55,634 nt of DNA, from NCBI GenBank assembly GCA_017541975.1, contig JAFXYB010000006.1:1-55634 (forward strand), in the 5' to 3' direction. Positions 48,281 to 55,634 of this stretch are shown here, piece after piece. The first letter of the stretch is position 1. Every line of letters starts with the position of its first letter. This DNA comes from a bacterium (GTDB taxonomy: Bacteria; Bacillota_I; Bacilli_A; Izemoplasmatales; UBA1188). The notes under the pieces are model-generated. The model was not told the origin of the DNA. It did no database searches and saw only the letters and a program-made list of their open reading frames with translations. The position numbers were made by a program, and so were the translations under genes.

Positions 48281-48319
48281 ATGGAAGTATACTACTTCGA
48301 TGTTTATTACTATGTTTAA
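48281..48319 (+). CDS. Possible 12-codon Tyr-rich leader peptide
   Basis: MEVYYFDVYYYV (five Tyr and one Phe in 12) follows the only good Shine-Dalgarno in this gap (AAGGAGG, 48272-48278) and ends at a TAA that overlaps the ATG at 48312 of the AraC-type gene. The spacing from SD to ATG is only two bases, which argues against efficient use. It may be chance. Confidence 0.25.
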   Translation: MEVYYFDVYYYV

Positions 48320-49091
48320 TTTCGTTTATAAAGATATCGATTTTGCACATAAGCTTGATAAAGCTGGTCTTCCAAACGAAGACTATGGAAAACATATGCA
48401 TCACTTCTATGAAATACTCTTTTTTATCAAAGGTGATGTTCACTACACAATTGAATCAAATACAGAAAAACTAAGAGAAGGTGATCTTCTGATAATTCAC
48501 CCTGGGCAATATCATTTTGCGGTTGTGAATGGAGGACTCTCTTATGAAAGATATGTTTTAAAATTTCCATCTTCAGTTCTTCCTCAGTACCTAGAAGAAA
48601 GATTAAAAGAGAAGAACCCTTGTTTCATAAGGAATCTTAATTATGAAAGTAGTTTTAAGGAATTTGACTTATACGATAGTGAATACAAAGAAGATGATTT
48701 ATATACTTTATTTATTTGTCAGCTAATGAAATTAGTTGTTAGTTTGTGTAAGGAAAAAACATCAACTCCTTCAATAGTAAATAACATGATTTCCAAAGTT
48801 GTATCTTATATCGACAACAACATTCAATCGCCACTAACACTTACTGATATATCAAAAGCTTGTCACTATAGTAAATCATACATAAGCAATGGATTTAAAC
48901 AGCATATGAAAACACCTATAATGAAATATGTAAGATACAAGAAGATGATTGCCGCTCACCAAATGATATTATCTGGTGAAAAGAAAAGGGTTGTGGCGAA
49001 TATGTTTGGATATGACGATTATTCAACGTTCTATAGAACTTACAAAAAAGCAATCAATAATCAGCAAACTGACAGCAAATATGATTCATAA
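48300..49091 (+). CDS. AraC-family transcriptional regulator
   Basis: This 263-residue regulator has an N-terminal cupin-like sensor domain (KHMHHFYEILFFIKGDVHY, then HPGQYHFAVV) and a C-terminal pair of helix-turn-helix units (SPLTLTDISKACHYSKSYIS and VANMFGYDDYSTFYRTYKK). Such proteins usually sense a sugar and act on neighbours; the next gene is the giant GH3 glycosidase, a plausible target. The ATG at 48300 has no Shine-Dalgarno at proper spacing; the ATG at 48312 is the alternative. Confidence 0.85.
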   Translation: MFITMFNFVYKDIDFAHKLDKAGLPNEDYGKHMHHFYEILFFIKGDVHYTIESNTEKLREGDLLIIHPGQYHFAVVNGGLSYERYVLKFPSSVLPQYLEERLKEKNPCFIRNLNYESSFKEFDLYDSEYKEDDLYTLFICQLMKLVVSLCKEKTSTPSIVNNMISKVVSYIDNNIQSPLTLTDISKACHYSKSYISNGFKQHMKTPIMKYVRYKKMIAAHQMILSGEKKRVVANMFGYDDYSTFYRTYKKAINNQQTDSKYDS

Positions 49092-49305: not shown

Positions 49306-52300
49306 ATGAAAAACAGATTTTTAAAACTTTCTGCTTTAGTAGTTACTGCTCTTTTAGTTGCAGTTTCTACTATTTGCTTAAGTTTAGGATCTAAGGCTTT
49401 ACTTTTAGACAGAAATGGTAAATACTATGCCGATTTCGATACTAAAGCTGAAGCCCTAGAGTACGCTGATGAACTAAACATTGAGCTCTCTGCTGAAGGT
49501 AACGTTTTGCTTAAGAATAATGGTTTATTACCTCTTGCAAAAGGTTCTAAAGTTAGTGTATTCGGACGTGCACAAAACTCTTTAATTGGTGGAACTGCTG
49601 GTATGGGTGGCGGCGCTACTGTTGGTGGCACTGGCACAATCGGTGGTGTTCTATACGATTCAGGATTCCAAATCAATCCAACTGTTGACCAACTTTATGC
49701 TTCTAATAACGGTGGCATCGGTGTTGAAAAAGATATAACTCCAGCTAAGGATTCATTCTTCTGGTATAATGACGCTGCATTCATCGTTCTTTCTAGAACT
49801 GGTGGTGAAGGTAAGGACCTTGATTTAGTAACTGATGAACTCGCAGTTCTTGAAAATGCTGCTCCACTCGTTGTTGACCAAAATTATGATCTTCCATCTG
49901 GAACTGTAATCGAATACAATGGTGAATATTATTACACTACAAGCGCATTCAAGACTGACGTTGCATCAACAAAAGATGATGTTAAAGCTGCTGCAACATT
50001 AATTACTCCAACTCCAATCGCTGTTGGTGATAAGAAAGTTAACATTGCATCTGGTACAGTAGTTTCAAATGGTGGTTTCAATTATGAACTCGCTGCTGCA
50101 CTCAAAACTGCAGATGTAGCAAGTATTGATGCATTTGTTGCTACTACTTCAAACTACACAAGACTCAATCCAACTGCATTAGTTATTGGCCAAAGAACAA
50201 ATAGTGCTATTGCTGCTGGCGCTCTTGTTTCTTACAATGGTAGTCTTTACTATTTAAAGAATCAAATTGCAAGAAGAACAACTTTAAGTGCTGCTAACAT
50301 TGCAACTGCTATTGGTGATAACCCTGCTATTCCAGTTACTCCATTAGTTGTTGGCGATGAATCAGCTACATATCCTGTTGATTCTATCGTTTCTTATAAT
50401 GGTAACTATTATCAACTTAAAGTTGCTTTCAACTTTACTCCTGATACAGTTGGTTTAACAGCTGATCAAATCGCTGCTGCATGTACAGATACAACTAAGA
50501 TTACTCCAACAGAAGTAGTATTCAATGTTGAAAAGAATTATGCAAAAGGCGAATATTGCTTAGTTGATGCTGCTATTTATAAATTCAACAATGCTTTCAG
50601 ACTAATTGGTACAACTAGAGGTATCACTGCAGAACAAATCGCAAATCTTGCTAAGAATGGAACTAAAGCTTATGCTGATGGCTTCGAACATGCTGCTCTT
50701 GGTAAGCAAGGTTCAAGAAAGAACTGGAATCTCTCTAATGCTATGGGTGGAACTAATGGCCAAACTGGTAGCATTGATAAATTATCTGAAGGTCCAGATG
50801 TAAAACACTATTTACAACTTACTAATAGTGAAAAAACTTTAATCGAAAATGTAAAAGCTAACTTCAAGAACATCGTTGTTGTATTAAATACATCTAACGC
50901 TATGGAAGTTGGCGACTTACAAGATGATCCAGCTATCAGTGCAATCGTTTGGATTGGTAGACCTGGTTCAACTGGTCTAAAAGCTTTCGGTAAGATCATT
51001 AATGGTGAAGTTAACCCTTCTGGTAGACTTGCTGATGAATGGTTCAGAGATTTCACATCTGATCCAGTATGGCAAAACTATGCTAAGAACATTCAAGTAG
51101 GTTCTGCTCACTTATATTTATACGATTATACAAGCAATGAAGCTAAAGCTCATAGCGTTCCAACTCCACAAATTTCATCTGGTACAGTTGCCGGTGAAGG
51201 TTTCTATGGTATTGACTATGATGAAGATATCTATCTAGGTTATGGTTATGCTGAAACTGTATTTGCAGAAATCAAAGCTGGTCACATTACAACTGATCCT
51301 GCAACAGGTAATCCAATCGTAGGTGACGATGCAACTGAAAAGGCTGAAAACTGGTTCAATGCTAATGTCGTTTATCCATTTGGTTATGGTTTATCATATT
51401 CTAACTTCAAGATGGAAGTTGGTGATGTATACTACAAGAATAATGGTATAAAAACAAAACTTGGCGCTACTGTTACTCCAGCAATCTTCAATTCAGAAGT
51501 AGGTCATCCTGCTACTGCTGAAAAATTATATGTTCCAGTATCTGTAACAAACGTTTCAGGTCTCCCTGGCAAACAAGTAGTACAAATCTACGTTCGTGCT
51601 CCTTATACTTCAGGAAAAGTTGAAAAGACAGATAAAGTATTAGTTGGATTCGAAAAGACTAACTTACTTGCTCCTGGACAAACTCAAACATTAGAAGTTG
51701 CAATCAATGTTCAAGACTTTGCATCATATGACTGGAAAGACGCTAACGGAAACAGTTATAGAGGATATGAATTAGATCCAGGTGCTTATGAAATCATCGT
51801 TGCTTCTAACTCACATACTGAAGATGATTCATATGGATTCACAATCACTGGTGAAAATGCTGCACTTCTAAAGATTGATGACTTCAGCCACAATGAAATT
51901 ATCCCTCTATTCTCTAACAAGGATATGTATGATTCACTCCGTATCAACTATCCTGAATATACTGGTGATAAAGAATGGTTAAGAATTAACCCAACTAATG
52001 CAGACCAAGTATTACTCTCTCGTAGTGATATGGAAGGAACATATCCAGAAACTCAATCTGTTGAAGAAAGAACACTCACAAACGAATTCGTTTATGCAGT
52101 AATGTATTACAACAACTACTGGAATGGCGGTGCTAGAGAGTATTGGTATGATGATAACACTTCTTACTATTACAGTGTTTACGCTAAAGATAGTGAAGGC
52201 CACTATGGTACAGTTGGTGTTGCTGACTGGTATAAGACAGAAACTGAATACAAAACTTTAATGGCTGGTTGGACACAAATTAATGCTGTTGATAATGAAG

Positions 52301-54585
52301 CAACTTACACTCAACTCCATGAAATGTCAGGTATCAACCTATACATGCCAGATGGTTCAATCAATCCTTTATGGACTACATTCATGAACCAATTAACATG
52401 GAAGAATGTTTGTGATATTGTTAACCATGGTTCACATACAACTTATGCAGTAGCTCACATTGGTAAGAAGACTGCATCTGATGAAAACGGCCCTAACTCA
52501 TTCAATGGTAAGAGCTGGTGTGATGAAGTAGTTCAATCATCTACATGGAATAAAGACTTATTATACGAATATGGTGTTGTAAATGGCGATCTATGTATGC
52601 TCAATATAACAGACCCAACTAAGACTAAAGAAACTGGTTGGTATGGTCCAGCTATGAACAATCACCGTTCTCCATTCGGCGGACGTAACAATGAATACTT
52701 CAGCCAAGATGGTATCCATGGCGGATATGTTGCTGCTGCAGTAGTAGCTGGTGCTCAAGCTAGAGGTGTTAACGTATATATCAAACATATGTATGGTAAT
52801 GACCAAGAAGAAAATAGATCAAGAGAAGCATTATTCACTTGGTTCAGTGAAGCTGCTCAAAGACAAATCTATGCTAAACCATTCCAAATGGCAATGCAAG
52901 AAGGTGGCGCAACTGGATGTATGACAGCTCTAAACCGTATCGGTAGAGTTGTATCATCTATGAACTACAATTTCATTACAAGACTCGTAAGAGATGAATG
53001 GGGTTGGGAAGGTGCATTCGTTACTGACTTCTATGGAAATAACTCTATGGTACAAAATAACATGGACTTACTCTTAAAAGTTGGTTGTGATCTCCCAGAT
53101 GGAACTGCATCAAGCGGACAAGATCCAGTATCTGGTACTTGGGATGCTACACTCCAAGGCGTTGGAACTGCTGAAGCTCCAAGCGGTGCTGTTAAATATA
53201 ACCGTACTGTATATCCAAATCTATTCTCAACTGGAGCTGCATATGCTATAGATGATACAGTTGAATATAATGGCAAGTTCTACAAGTTCACTGCTGCTCA
53301 TGCTGCTGGTGCTTGGAACGCTGAAGAAGTAACAGAAGTTGCTGAAAATACTCTACCAAAAGCTGATATGGTTGATTTATCTCAATGGTATTATGCTCGT
53401 ATGGTTGCAATGAGAGTTCTCTATGTTGCTGCTAATACATTAAATAATGAAAATGGTGTAAGAGTAACTGGCTTCGGTGCTACATATGCTGATTTAGTAC
53501 AAGGCACTGCTGCTAACTTATCAGTTGCAATCGATCCATCTATGTTAAATGGTGAAACAGCAACTTACGCTGTAACAAACGGTACTCTTCCTGAAGGCTT
53601 AACACTCAATGCTACAACTGGTGCAATCACTGGTACTCCTCTTGCTACTGCAAACAACACAAGTGTAACAATTTCTTACACTGTTGCTAAGTACATAGTT
53701 GGTACTGGAACATTCAGATTCACTGTTGCATCTGCATTTGCTCTTGGCGAAGGTCAAAATACTGCTACAACTGGTACAGCATATACTGGCGCTATTACTG
53801 GTTTATCTGGTGCTACATATGCTCTTGCTGAAGATCAAATTCTCCCAGCTGGCTTAACACTTGCTAATACAGGTGCTATCACTGGTACTCCAACTAAAGC
53901 TGGTACATATAACTTCACAGTTAATGCTACAGTTGGTTCTGGAAACAATGCTAGAGTTTACACTGTTAACTTAACTATCACTGTAACTGGCGAAGACATC
54001 GTTACACCTGCTCCTGCTGCATTCATCGTAGAAGATGGATATGTTAAAGCTTATGATGCTGAAACTGGAACTTATGTAAATGTTGTAGCTCTTGCTGATA
54101 TTACTGGTCCTCAAGGTCCTAAGGGTGATTCAGGTGAAGATGGTATCGATGGTGAAGATGGCGCTCCTGGTGCAACTGGTCCTAAGGGCGATAAAGGCGA
54201 TAAAGGTGACACTGGTGAAACTGGTGCTCAAGGTCCTAAGGGTGATAAGGGTGACACTGGTGAAACTGGTGCAACTGGCCCTCAAGGCCCTCAAGGTGAA
54301 ACTGGCCCTCAAGGTCCTGCTGGTGCAAACGGAACTAACGGTCAAGATGGTGCTGCTGGTGCTGATGGTGCTCAAGGTCCTAAGGGTGACAAGGGTGATA
54401 AAGGTGACACAGGTGCTACTGGCCCTCAAGGCCCTCAAGGCGAAAAGGGTGAAAAAGGTGACAAGGGTGATCCAGGCGAAGCTGCTCAAGGTTGCGGTTC
54501 TGTAATCGGAATCTCTGCAGTTATGATCTCTGGTCTTGCTATCTGCGGAGCTGCTCTTGCTCTTAGAAGAAAAGAAAGAGAATAA
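49306..54585 (+). CDS. Giant membrane-anchored, circularly permuted GH3 glycosidase with collagen stalk
   Basis: This 1759-residue surface enzyme has a reversed GH3 order. Residues 1-30 are a signal or anchor helix. Residues ~62-580 are the GH3 C-domain (AEGNVLLKNNGLLPLAKG, the SRTGGEGKD loop with candidate acid/base E168, NPSGRLADEWF), split at ~186-450 by five ~55-residue repeats. Residues 690-835 are an Fn3-like domain (PFGYGLSYSNFK). The barrel follows at ~1035-1380 with KHMYGNDQEENR (K1160, H1161) and the nucleophile motif VTDFYG (D1241). Then come two putative Ig (He_PIG) domains, 42 collagen triplets (1601-1726) and a GCGS-helix-RRKERE tail. Permuted GH3 beta-glucosidases are known from Butyrivibrio and Ruminococcus; the substrate here is probably a plant or host beta-glycan, which is inferred. 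AGGAGG lies 14 bases before the ATG, a long spacing. Confidence 0.9.
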   Translation: MKNRFLKLSALVVTALLVAVSTICLSLGSKALLLDRNGKYYADFDTKAEALEYADELNIELSAEGNVLLKNNGLLPLAKGSKVSVFGRAQNSLIGGTAGMGGGATVGGTGTIGGVLYDSGFQINPTVDQLYASNNGGIGVEKDITPAKDSFFWYNDAAFIVLSRTGGEGKDLDLVTDELAVLENAAPLVVDQNYDLPSGTVIEYNGEYYYTTSAFKTDVASTKDDVKAAATLITPTPIAVGDKKVNIASGTVVSNGGFNYELAAALKTADVASIDAFVATTSNYTRLNPTALVIGQRTNSAIAAGALVSYNGSLYYLKNQIARRTTLSAANIATAIGDNPAIPVTPLVVGDESATYPVDSIVSYNGNYYQLKVAFNFTPDTVGLTADQIAAACTDTTKITPTEVVFNVEKNYAKGEYCLVDAAIYKFNNAFRLIGTTRGITAEQIANLAKNGTKAYADGFEHAALGKQGSRKNWNLSNAMGGTNGQTGSIDKLSEGPDVKHYLQLTNSEKTLIENVKANFKNIVVVLNTSNAMEVGDLQDDPAISAIVWIGRPGSTGLKAFGKIINGEVNPSGRLADEWFRDFTSDPVWQNYAKNIQVGSAHLYLYDYTSNEAKAHSVPTPQISSGTVAGEGFYGIDYDEDIYLGYGYAETVFAEIKAGHITTDPATGNPIVGDDATEKAENWFNANVVYPFGYGLSYSNFKMEVGDVYYKNNGIKTKLGATVTPAIFNSEVGHPATAEKLYVPVSVTNVSGLPGKQVVQIYVRAPYTSGKVEKTDKVLVGFEKTNLLAPGQTQTLEVAINVQDFASYDWKDANGNSYRGYELDPGAYEIIVASNSHTEDDSYGFTITGENAALLKIDDFSHNEIIPLFSNKDMYDSLRINYPEYTGDKEWLRINPTNADQVLLSRSDMEGTYPETQSVEERTLTNEFVYAVMYYNNYWNGGAREYWYDDNTSYYYSVYAKDSEGHYGTVGVADWYKTETEYKTLMAGWTQINAVDNEATYTQLHEMSGINLYMPDGSINPLWTTFMNQLTWKNVCDIVNHGSHTTYAVAHIGKKTASDENGPNSFNGKSWCDEVVQSSTWNKDLLYEYGVVNGDLCMLNITDPTKTKETGWYGPAMNNHRSPFGGRNNEYFSQDGIHGGYVAAAVVAGAQARGVNVYIKHMYGNDQEENRSREALFTWFSEAAQRQIYAKPFQMAMQEGGATGCMTALNRIGRVVSSMNYNFITRLVRDEWGWEGAFVTDFYGNNSMVQNNMDLLLKVGCDLPDGTASSGQDPVSGTWDATLQGVGTAEAPSGAVKYNRTVYPNLFSTGAAYAIDDTVEYNGKFYKFTAAHAAGAWNAEEVTEVAENTLPKADMVDLSQWYYARMVAMRVLYVAANTLNNENGVRVTGFGATYADLVQGTAANLSVAIDPSMLNGETATYAVTNGTLPEGLTLNATTGAITGTPLATANNTSVTISYTVAKYIVGTGTFRFTVASAFALGEGQNTATTGTAYTGAITGLSGATYALAEDQILPAGLTLANTGAITGTPTKAGTYNFTVNATVGSGNNARVYTVNLTITVTGEDIVTPAPAAFIVEDGYVKAYDAETGTYVNVVALADITGPQGPKGDSGEDGIDGEDGAPGATGPKGDKGDKGDTGETGAQGPKGDKGDTGETGATGPQGPQGETGPQGPAGANGTNGQDGAAGADGAQGPKGDKGDKGDTGATGPQGPQGEKGEKGDKGDPGEAAQGCGSVIGISAVMISGLAICGAALALRRKERE
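49861..50661 (+). repeat. Five degenerate ~55-residue coding repeats inside the GH3 domain
   Basis: Units at residues ~187-236, 237-292, 293-346, 347-403 and 404-450 share the core G-x-V-x-Y-N-G-x-Y-Y-x-L-x-x-A-F (for example GTVIEYNGEYYY, DSIVSYNGNYYQL). A related sixth piece, DDTVEYNGKFYKFTAAH, is in the barrel at 53242-53316. The pattern recalls small carbohydrate-binding modules such as CBM5/12. Confidence 0.6.
54106..54483 (+). repeat. Collagen-like tract of 42 Gly-X-Y triplets
   Basis: The triplets run without interruption from GPQ to GEA; GDK, GDT, GPK, GPQ and GET dominate. Longer blocks such as GPKGDKGDKGDTG recur, also at DNA level, so the tract should be prone to length change. 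The repeat also produces long meaningless ORFs in other frames. Confidence 0.92.
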
Positions 54586-54743: not shown

Positions 54744-55634
54744 ATGAAAAAAGGAATATTATCACTCATATTACTAATGGCAATAAGTCTTATTCTTATT
54801 GGATGTAGAGGTGGTGGAACAACTACACTACATACACATATAGATCAAAATAAAGATGGTATATGCGATGTTTGTAATGAAAAAATAGGTCAGAGTGAAA
54901 GACAATTCAATGTACAATTTAATCTTAATTATACTGGTGCTCCAAAAGTTAATCCAATTAAGGTTACACAAGGAACAACTGCGACTAAACCAGAAGATCC
55001 TGTTAGAGAAGGATATAGATTTAAAGGCTGGTATATGGATAGTAAAGGAAAAACTGTATTTGATTTTACTAAAGCAATAACAAAAAACACTATTATCTAT
55101 GCCATCTGGGAAGATATGGTCGCTAATGTATCATTTGATTTAAACTTTGATACAGATAGTGTAATTGCTGATATTGAAGTTGAAATTGGAAATACTATTA
55201 CACTTCCAACTGATCCAACTAGAGAAAACTATCGTTTTGATGGCTGGTATATTGATCAAACTTGTACTACAGCATTTGATAACACTAAAGGAGTAGAAGC
55301 TTCACTAACTTTATATGCTAAATGGACTAAGACTCATGACTATGTAACATATAATCAAAACTATGAAGGTGCTGAAGAACTAAATCCTGTATTAGCTGAA
55401 TTTGGAAAGGTACTTACATTCCCAACAGTTACAAGAGAACAATATAGATTCGATGGTTGGTATCTTGAAGCAGCTTGTACAACTGAATTTAGCGCAACTG
55501 ATCTCTTCACTGAAGCTACTACACTATATGCTAAGTGGACTAAGACTCATGACTATGTAACATATAATCAAAACTATGAAGGTGCTGAAGAACTAAATCC
55601 TGTATTAGCTGAATTTGGAAAGGTACTTACATTC
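54744..55634 (+). CDS. Lipoprotein of tandem InlB-type repeats, 3' end outside the window
   Basis: The gene starts at an ATG behind AAGGAGA and is cut by the window edge; 297 residues are visible. The signal peptide ends in the lipobox LIGC with C21 as the lipid-bearing residue. A short metal-site-like motif, HTHIDQNKDGICDVC, follows (residues 30-44). Then come InlB B-repeat (Flg_new) units with GYRFKGWYMD, NYRFDGWYID and QYRFDGWYLE cores and YAKW ends. The last units have a 71-residue period and are identical at DNA level over 99 bases. The frame is open to the last base, with no stop seen. Function unknown; a surface adhesin-like role is inferred. Confidence 0.85.
   Translation, partial: MKKGILSLILLMAISLILIGCRGGGTTTLHTHIDQNKDGICDVCNEKIGQSERQFNVQFNLNYTGAPKVNPIKVTQGTTATKPEDPVREGYRFKGWYMDSKGKTVFDFTKAITKNTIIYAIWEDMVANVSFDLNFDTDSVIADIEVEIGNTITLPTDPTRENYRFDGWYIDQTCTTAFDNTKGVEASLTLYAKWTKTHDYVTYNQNYEGAEELNPVLAEFGKVLTFPTVTREQYRFDGWYLEAACTTEFSATDLFTEATTLYAKWTKTHDYVTYNQNYEGAEELNPVLAEFGKVLTF
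55323..55634 (+). repeat. 213-bp tandem repeat in the lipoprotein gene
   Basis: Bases 55323-55421 and 55536-55634 are identical over 99 bases (period 213, in frame); the second copy runs out of the window. Confidence 0.92.

Follow-up and report, generated by a model that had tools for sequence, protein, structure and literature searches.

A circularly permuted GH3 glycosidase with a collagen-like stalk and a C-terminal membrane tail in a lineage of Bacilli

Introduction

What kind of surface protein is encoded when the domains of a GH3 glycosidase and a long run of collagen triplets share one reading frame, and how could such a protein be displayed by its cell? This question is raised by an open reading frame close to the end of the window, by which we mean the whole stretch of 55,634 nucleotides that was analysed here. 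The window is the complete contig C18 of a draft genome of 1.18 Mb (82.5% complete), and its nearest named records are rumen MAGs from yak (RGIG10250) and goat (RGIG3500, 'Bacilli bacterium'). GH3 enzymes with a permuted domain order are already known (PMC5104943, PMC11233000). The original prediction, made from the sequence of the window, described such an enzyme, with catalytic residues that look intact, carried on a collagen stalk and anchored at the cell surface.

Results

Domain architecture of the stalked GH3 protein

A Pfam search of the protein found all five families named in the original prediction, in the order claimed: PF01915, PF14310, PF00933, PF05345 and PF01391 (Table 1). More specifically, PF01915 and PF05345 each match in two stretches, the latter between barrel and collagen, and PF01391 matches in three; PF00933 lies ahead of PF01915 in none of the Pfam results. 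The GH3 C-domain and the Fn3-like domain precede the barrel in a single chain, which is the permuted order, and the same arrangement was found in the scanned GH3 relatives. The two putative Ig domains, the exact count of 42 uninterrupted collagen triplets and the hydrophobic stretch at the C-terminus likewise agree with what had been described. The earlier interpretation is thus supported as a whole by the domain search and by alignment to solved structures: the domains are permuted, the catalytic dyad is intact, and both the run of collagen triplets and the tail for the membrane are present.

Table 1. Features of the stalked GH3 gene and its neighbours, in window coordinates.
Feature	Position	Strand	Basis or remark
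AraC-type regulator, directly upstream	48300..49091	+	PF02311, PF12833
Whole ORF of the collagen-stalked, membrane-tailed permuted GH3, 1759 aa	49306..54585	+	
N-terminal signal peptide, aa 1-31	49306..49398	+	hydrophobicity peak aa 5-28; cleavage site inferred
GH3 C-domain (alpha/beta sandwich) part 1, aa 62-175	49489..49830	+	second PF01915 stretch, limits by alignment
Acid/base E168 codon	49807-49809	+	
Five CBM5/12-like repeats in acid/base loop, aa 186-460	49861..50685	+	PF02839, repeat alignment
GH3 C-domain part 2, aa 494-646	50785..51243	+	PF01915, best stretch, E 9e-25
Fn3-like domain, aa 758-836	51577..51813	+	PF14310
GH3 barrel domain, about aa 1000-1385	52303..53460	+	PF00933 at 1117-1243; alignment to GlyA1 5k6l
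K1160-H1161	52783-52788	+	alignment to GlyA1
Nucleophile D1241	53026-53028	+	alignment to GlyA1
CBM5/12 module, aa 1308-1341, between last barrel strand and last barrel helix	53227..53328	+	PF02839, best stretch
Two He_PIG (putative Ig) domains, aa 1385-1565	53458..54000	+	PF05345, two stretches
Conserved leader ahead of collagen, aa 1566-1600	54001..54105	+	same motif in paralogues
Stalk of 42 Gly-X-Y collagen triplets without interruption, aa 1601-1726	54106..54483	+	PF01391
C-terminal tail: GCGSVIG, membrane helix, RRKERE, aa 1729-1759	54490..54582	+	
Partner lipoprotein start, Listeria-Bacteroides repeats, runs off contig	54744..55634	+	PF09479

Active site and substrate

The best PDB match of a profile built from five relatives is GlyA1 (5k6l), a solved permuted GH3 from the cow rumen. 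In the profile alignment, E168 pairs with GlyA1 E143 and with E458 of T. neapolitana Bgl3B, D1241 aligns to GlyA1 D709, and K1160-H1161 align to K630-H631. The nucleophile Asp lies in the barrel and the acid/base Glu in the sandwich domain, and all four catalytic positions named in the original prediction proved correct. Furthermore, the catalytic E, K, H and D, together with an Arg, are identical in 17 of 17 aligned GH3 sequences, divergent paralogues included.

The -1 subsite of GlyA1 is formed by D532, R597, K630, H631, R641, Y677 and W710 (PMC5104943). The R, K, H and R of this set are kept in the window protein, and the positions of D532, Y677 and W710 are occupied by N1061, L1209 and F1242, the first of these pairings having been made by eye by setting NGP against the usual DGP. 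Identical residues at the -1 subsite are unnecessary for membership among the permuted GH3 enzymes but are relevant to the substrate. Because three of them differ from GlyA1, a beta-glucosidase is not to be assumed. The enzyme is probably active, and glucose specificity should not be taken for granted; since the predicted glycone pocket differs from that of GlyA1, activity is not certain.

Structure prediction was confident for the repeat array and for parts of the Fn3-like region only. The AlphaFold model of the core of the window protein (aa 66-1265), built from five alignment rows, has a mean pLDDT of 46, and that of the compact relative in the goat-rumen MAG L058, also from five rows, has a mean of 34, with the barrel at low confidence in both. 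A Foldseek search with the low-confidence core model returned GlyA1 first, over only about 365 columns and with a TM-score of 0.11.

Carbohydrate-binding-like repeats in the acid/base loop

PF02839 scores 41.7 bits for the protein (cut-off 26.2), with a family E-value of 1e-10, and its best stretch is the single module that interrupts the barrel after the last strand and is missing from the compact paralogues. The five repeats of the array align with each other and with this copy, giving six CBM-like units, where the CBM5/12 membership of each unit of the array (186-460) rests on alignment. The original prediction had noted an inserted repeat array; its CBM5/12-like character and the further copy towards the barrel end are additions of the present analysis. 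The array is the longest confidently predicted part of the core model, with hairpin-plus-helix units at a pLDDT of about 65-87. It is inserted in the acid/base loop: the compact paralogues have 11-38 residues after this loop, the window protein and two G003 relatives about 330. The repeats therefore adjoin the active site, and putative polysaccharide binding beside the active site is the simplest inference.

The paralogues on contig C6 of the same genome carry their large inserts elsewhere, between the Fn3-like domain and the barrel. In the second of them (L044:12724-16371), CBM5/12 repeats occupy this position, and the gene is cut by the contig end.

Collagen stalk and C-terminal tail

The run of 42 triplets compares with a maximum of 6 in 300 shuffles of the protein, which rules out a chance origin. 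PF01391 scores 62 bits (cut-off 27.2), as for bacterial collagen-like proteins, and the collagen part also matches the NCBIfam models NF038330, NF046116 and NF038329, all below their cut-offs. The X positions are mainly Pro, Asp, Ala or Glu and the Y positions mainly Lys, Thr or Gln, and each of the 12 Lys in the run is directly followed by Gly-Asp or Gly-Glu. In composition, these preferences are typical of bacterial collagens. If triple-helical, the stalk would be about 36 nm long. The leader in front of it, whose motif also precedes collagen in the paralogues of C6 (C6a), G001 and G005, is a possible candidate for a trimer nucleation element.

Hydrophobic stretches occur at aa 5-28, within the signal peptide, and at aa 1733-1752, the C-terminal membrane helix. 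Within the genus, the tail is restricted to GH3-collagen ORFs or contig-end fragments. Its layout, GC[GNE]SVIG followed by a membrane helix and RRK, is similar to that of C-terminal sorting tags of the Cys type. None of the curated sorting-tag models of NCBIfam scored over its cut-off against the window tail, and the known tags, MYXO-CTERM included, were rejected for it. Anchoring by LPXTG and sortase was rejected as well, since the motif is missing from the tail and a search of the own genome (82.5% complete) for sortase (PF04203) found none. The tail of a related protein in G035 passes the LPXTG_anchor model with 21.7 bits, again without an LPXTG motif.

Recurrence of the architecture and variation of the stalk

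Full-length relatives combining GH3, He_PIG, collagen and tail were found on contig C6 of the own genome, twice in G001, once in G005 and in the goat-rumen MAG L058; their stalks comprise 43, 32, 16, 15 and 8+19 triplets. The reverse layout, in which a lipobox Cys is followed by 12 triplets and then by GH3, is present on contig C17 of the own genome, and G003:C22 begins with lipobox, collagen and GH3 before running off the contig. The C17 gene, a mirror-image GH3 lipoprotein (L042:9861-14033, minus strand), has its N-terminal triplets directly after the lipobox Cys. No relatives were found among viral contigs.

Of 19 collagen proteins from the order and L058, whose anchors may be N- or C-terminal, 17 have no more than 40 residues between the collagen and the lipobox Cys or the tail; the exceptions are at 82 and 175. 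G211 carries, at the same position, a 94-residue segment with heptad (3.5-residue) periodicity that was matched in 0 of 2000 shuffles, and other families of Bacilli have short linkers in place of the stalk. The closeness to the anchor and the coiled coil or short linker found elsewhere thus suggest that collagen is one option among several interchangeable spacers next to the anchor. L138:7753-12153 (minus strand), a gene from a family of Bacilli other than that of the window, encodes a permuted GH3 in which a coiled-coil segment takes the place of the collagen, between an Ig-like/Flg_new region and a membrane helix.

The leader and tail themselves appear to move between genes. In nucleotide comparison with C6a, the window gene shows 93% identity in the leader and 91% in the tail, against 52-67% in the enzyme parts, and a tail in another genome, G005, matches that of C6a with 100% identity. 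The leader-collagen-tail cassette has likely been exchanged or converted between genes, which would also explain why three genomes (the own, G003 and G005) have contigs whose first or last bases fall within collagen. The genomes used are all drafts, for the most part MAGs, and repetitive collagen breaks their assemblies. The C6a paralogue lies at L044:4481-9457, and the compared region of the window spans 54001-54582.

Gene neighbourhood

An AraC-type gene also precedes the orthologue in G003:C5. Downstream, the start of contig G000:C4 overlaps the end of the window by 43 bases and continues the same kind of lipoprotein; C4 thus probably follows the window. After the lipoprotein, C4 encodes a permuted GH3 of 969 aa that has membrane helices. 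The order of stalked or anchored GH3, lipoprotein and membrane GH3 recurs in L058, G001, G211, G217 and G246, with a membrane GH3 of about 970 aa in the first three. This suggests a single surface module of three genes, in which one GH3 is held on a long tether and the other on a short one.

Cell wall status

The PBP transpeptidase family is missing from all seven genomes of the genus (G000 to G006). Among 90 genomes of the order, which may correspond to Izemoplasma-like bacteria (PMC8397711), 89 lack it and G020 is the one that has it; 10 of 14 control genomes were positive. It is also missing in eight of nine other Bacilli that carry the module or its GH3 genes, as well as in the goat MAG. 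A Mur-ligase-type ORF of about 421 aa occurs once per genome in five of the seven genus genomes, and the three such ORFs that were read all contain the FolC motif GTNGKGS. Together with the sortase search, the missing PBP transpeptidase indicates that the genus is most likely wall-less, and, judged by the same gene family, the order probably is too. A stalk serving mainly to cross a thick wall was rejected, given a genus without PBP transpeptidase and Mur-ligase-type ORFs that are FolC-like.

Discussion

We consider it likely that the gene encodes a secreted, membrane-anchored and collagen-stalked exo-glycosidase, a permuted GH3 of the GlyA1 type that is probably trimeric. The chain would be exported by its signal peptide, and the C-domain, Fn3-like domain and barrel would fold into one GH3 head in which E168 faces D1241. 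The CBM5/12-like repeats, which extend from the acid/base loop, may hold polysaccharide near the active site. The two Ig-like domains and the short leader would lead into the collagen rod, where three chains are probably joined as a trimer, and the tail of Cys, membrane helix and Arg would fix the protein in the cytoplasmic membrane. Because the cell is probably wall-less, the rod would not cross peptidoglycan but would lift the enzyme clear of the membrane and its surface coat and cluster it there. Together with the repeat lipoprotein and the short-tethered second GH3, the enzyme could trim plant oligosaccharides at the surface of the rumen cell for uptake. The earlier view of an enzyme held far out from the membrane gains from the recurrence of the stalk, its varied length, its place beside the anchor and its replacement by a coiled coil; it presupposes that a triple helix forms.

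Other readings of the same features were weighed. The protein could mainly be a glycan-binding adhesin, with CBM5/12, Ig and collagen parts for attachment to plant fibre and a GH3 head that performs no useful catalysis. The three -1 subsite residues unlike those of GlyA1 and the six CBM-like units fit this idea, and collagen-like proteins of bacteria frequently act as adhesins (PMC8968730, PMC3022705). A decayed site would, however, be expected to vary, and the nucleophile, acid/base, Lys-His and Arg residues are invariant throughout the aligned sequences, which makes an adhesin improbable. About as doubtful is a Gly-X-Y run that forms no triple helix and acts as a flexible monomeric spacer, merely lengthening the tether. 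Stalk length does vary widely and no known trimerisation domain was identified in the protein, but the triplet phase is exact over 126 residues, with Pro in X, Lys in Y and the invariable acidic step after Lys, a selected triple-helix signature, and in G211 the place of the run is taken by a coiled coil.

That the join of GH3 and collagen is an assembly error, arising from repetitive collagen DNA common to several genes, we regard as very unlikely. The near-identity of paralogue leaders and tails in DNA (91-93%) and the contigs that break within collagen are what such an error would draw on; against it, the fusion lies inside contigs of independent genomes (G001, G005 and the goat MAG L058) with differing stalk sequences, and the frame is open across the join within a single 55.6-kb contig.

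The stalked exo-glycosidase favoured here shares features with several known systems. GlyA1 (PDB 5k6l-5k6o, PMC5104943) has the same order of sandwich, FnIII and barrel, the corresponding catalytic pair and a rumen origin, but a CBM5/12 array in the acid/base loop and a collagen stalk are not reported for it, and the additional domain at its C-terminus is unlike these. Streptococcal Scl1 and Scl2 and Legionella Lcl also present a surface rod of Gly-X-Y triplets, whereas the Scl proteins are LPXTG-anchored and the window protein bears an enzyme as its head in a genome where sortase was not found. The MYXO-CTERM and other Cys-type sorting tags (PMC11980579) combine a short Cys motif, a membrane helix and an Arg-rich end as the window tail does, but the latter comes from a different phylum with one membrane and matches no sorting-tag model.

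Reports on phytoplasmas place collagen-like proteins at the membrane surface and name them as possible adhesins. Klebsiella pullulanase is a GH13 surface lipoprotein of the Gram-negative outer membrane with a short N-terminal Gly-X-Pro stretch. It resembles the window protein as a bacterial hydrolase with a collagen-like sequence and differs from it in that the latter is a permuted GH3 whose stalk, of 42 triplets, is C-terminal. Its collagen-like sequences stabilise homotrimers, as PMC3022705 cites from Charalambous et al. (1988, EMBO J). The original prediction had seen no precedent for an inserted repeat array and a bacterial collagen stalk on a permuted GH3; the pullulanase homotrimer, as cited there, softens this claim, and the combination itself stands as one that we did not find described. 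In the part of the literature covered, we found no description of a collagen-stalked GH3, nor of its recurrence with varied stalks or its presence in a probably wall-less lineage.

More tentatively, and with somewhat less than even confidence, we propose a general display scheme for wall-less rumen Bacilli, in which interchangeable rigid stalks, made of collagen of varying length or of a coiled coil, sit beside an N- or C-terminal anchor (lipid or helix) and hold permuted GH3 enzymes above the membrane in trimeric clusters, and the leader-collagen-tail cassette is exchanged between genes. A recurrent collagen stalk of variable length bearing a glycosidase in wall-less bacteria would show how such cells can position hydrolases at the surface when neither sortase nor cellulosome is at hand. 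It would also supply naturally occurring stalks for the design of clustered enzymes, in which both the length and the type of stalk could be varied and tested.

Large lipoproteins with 21-36 triplets close behind the lipobox were also observed in other genera of the order (L094, L095, L096, L097 and L099).
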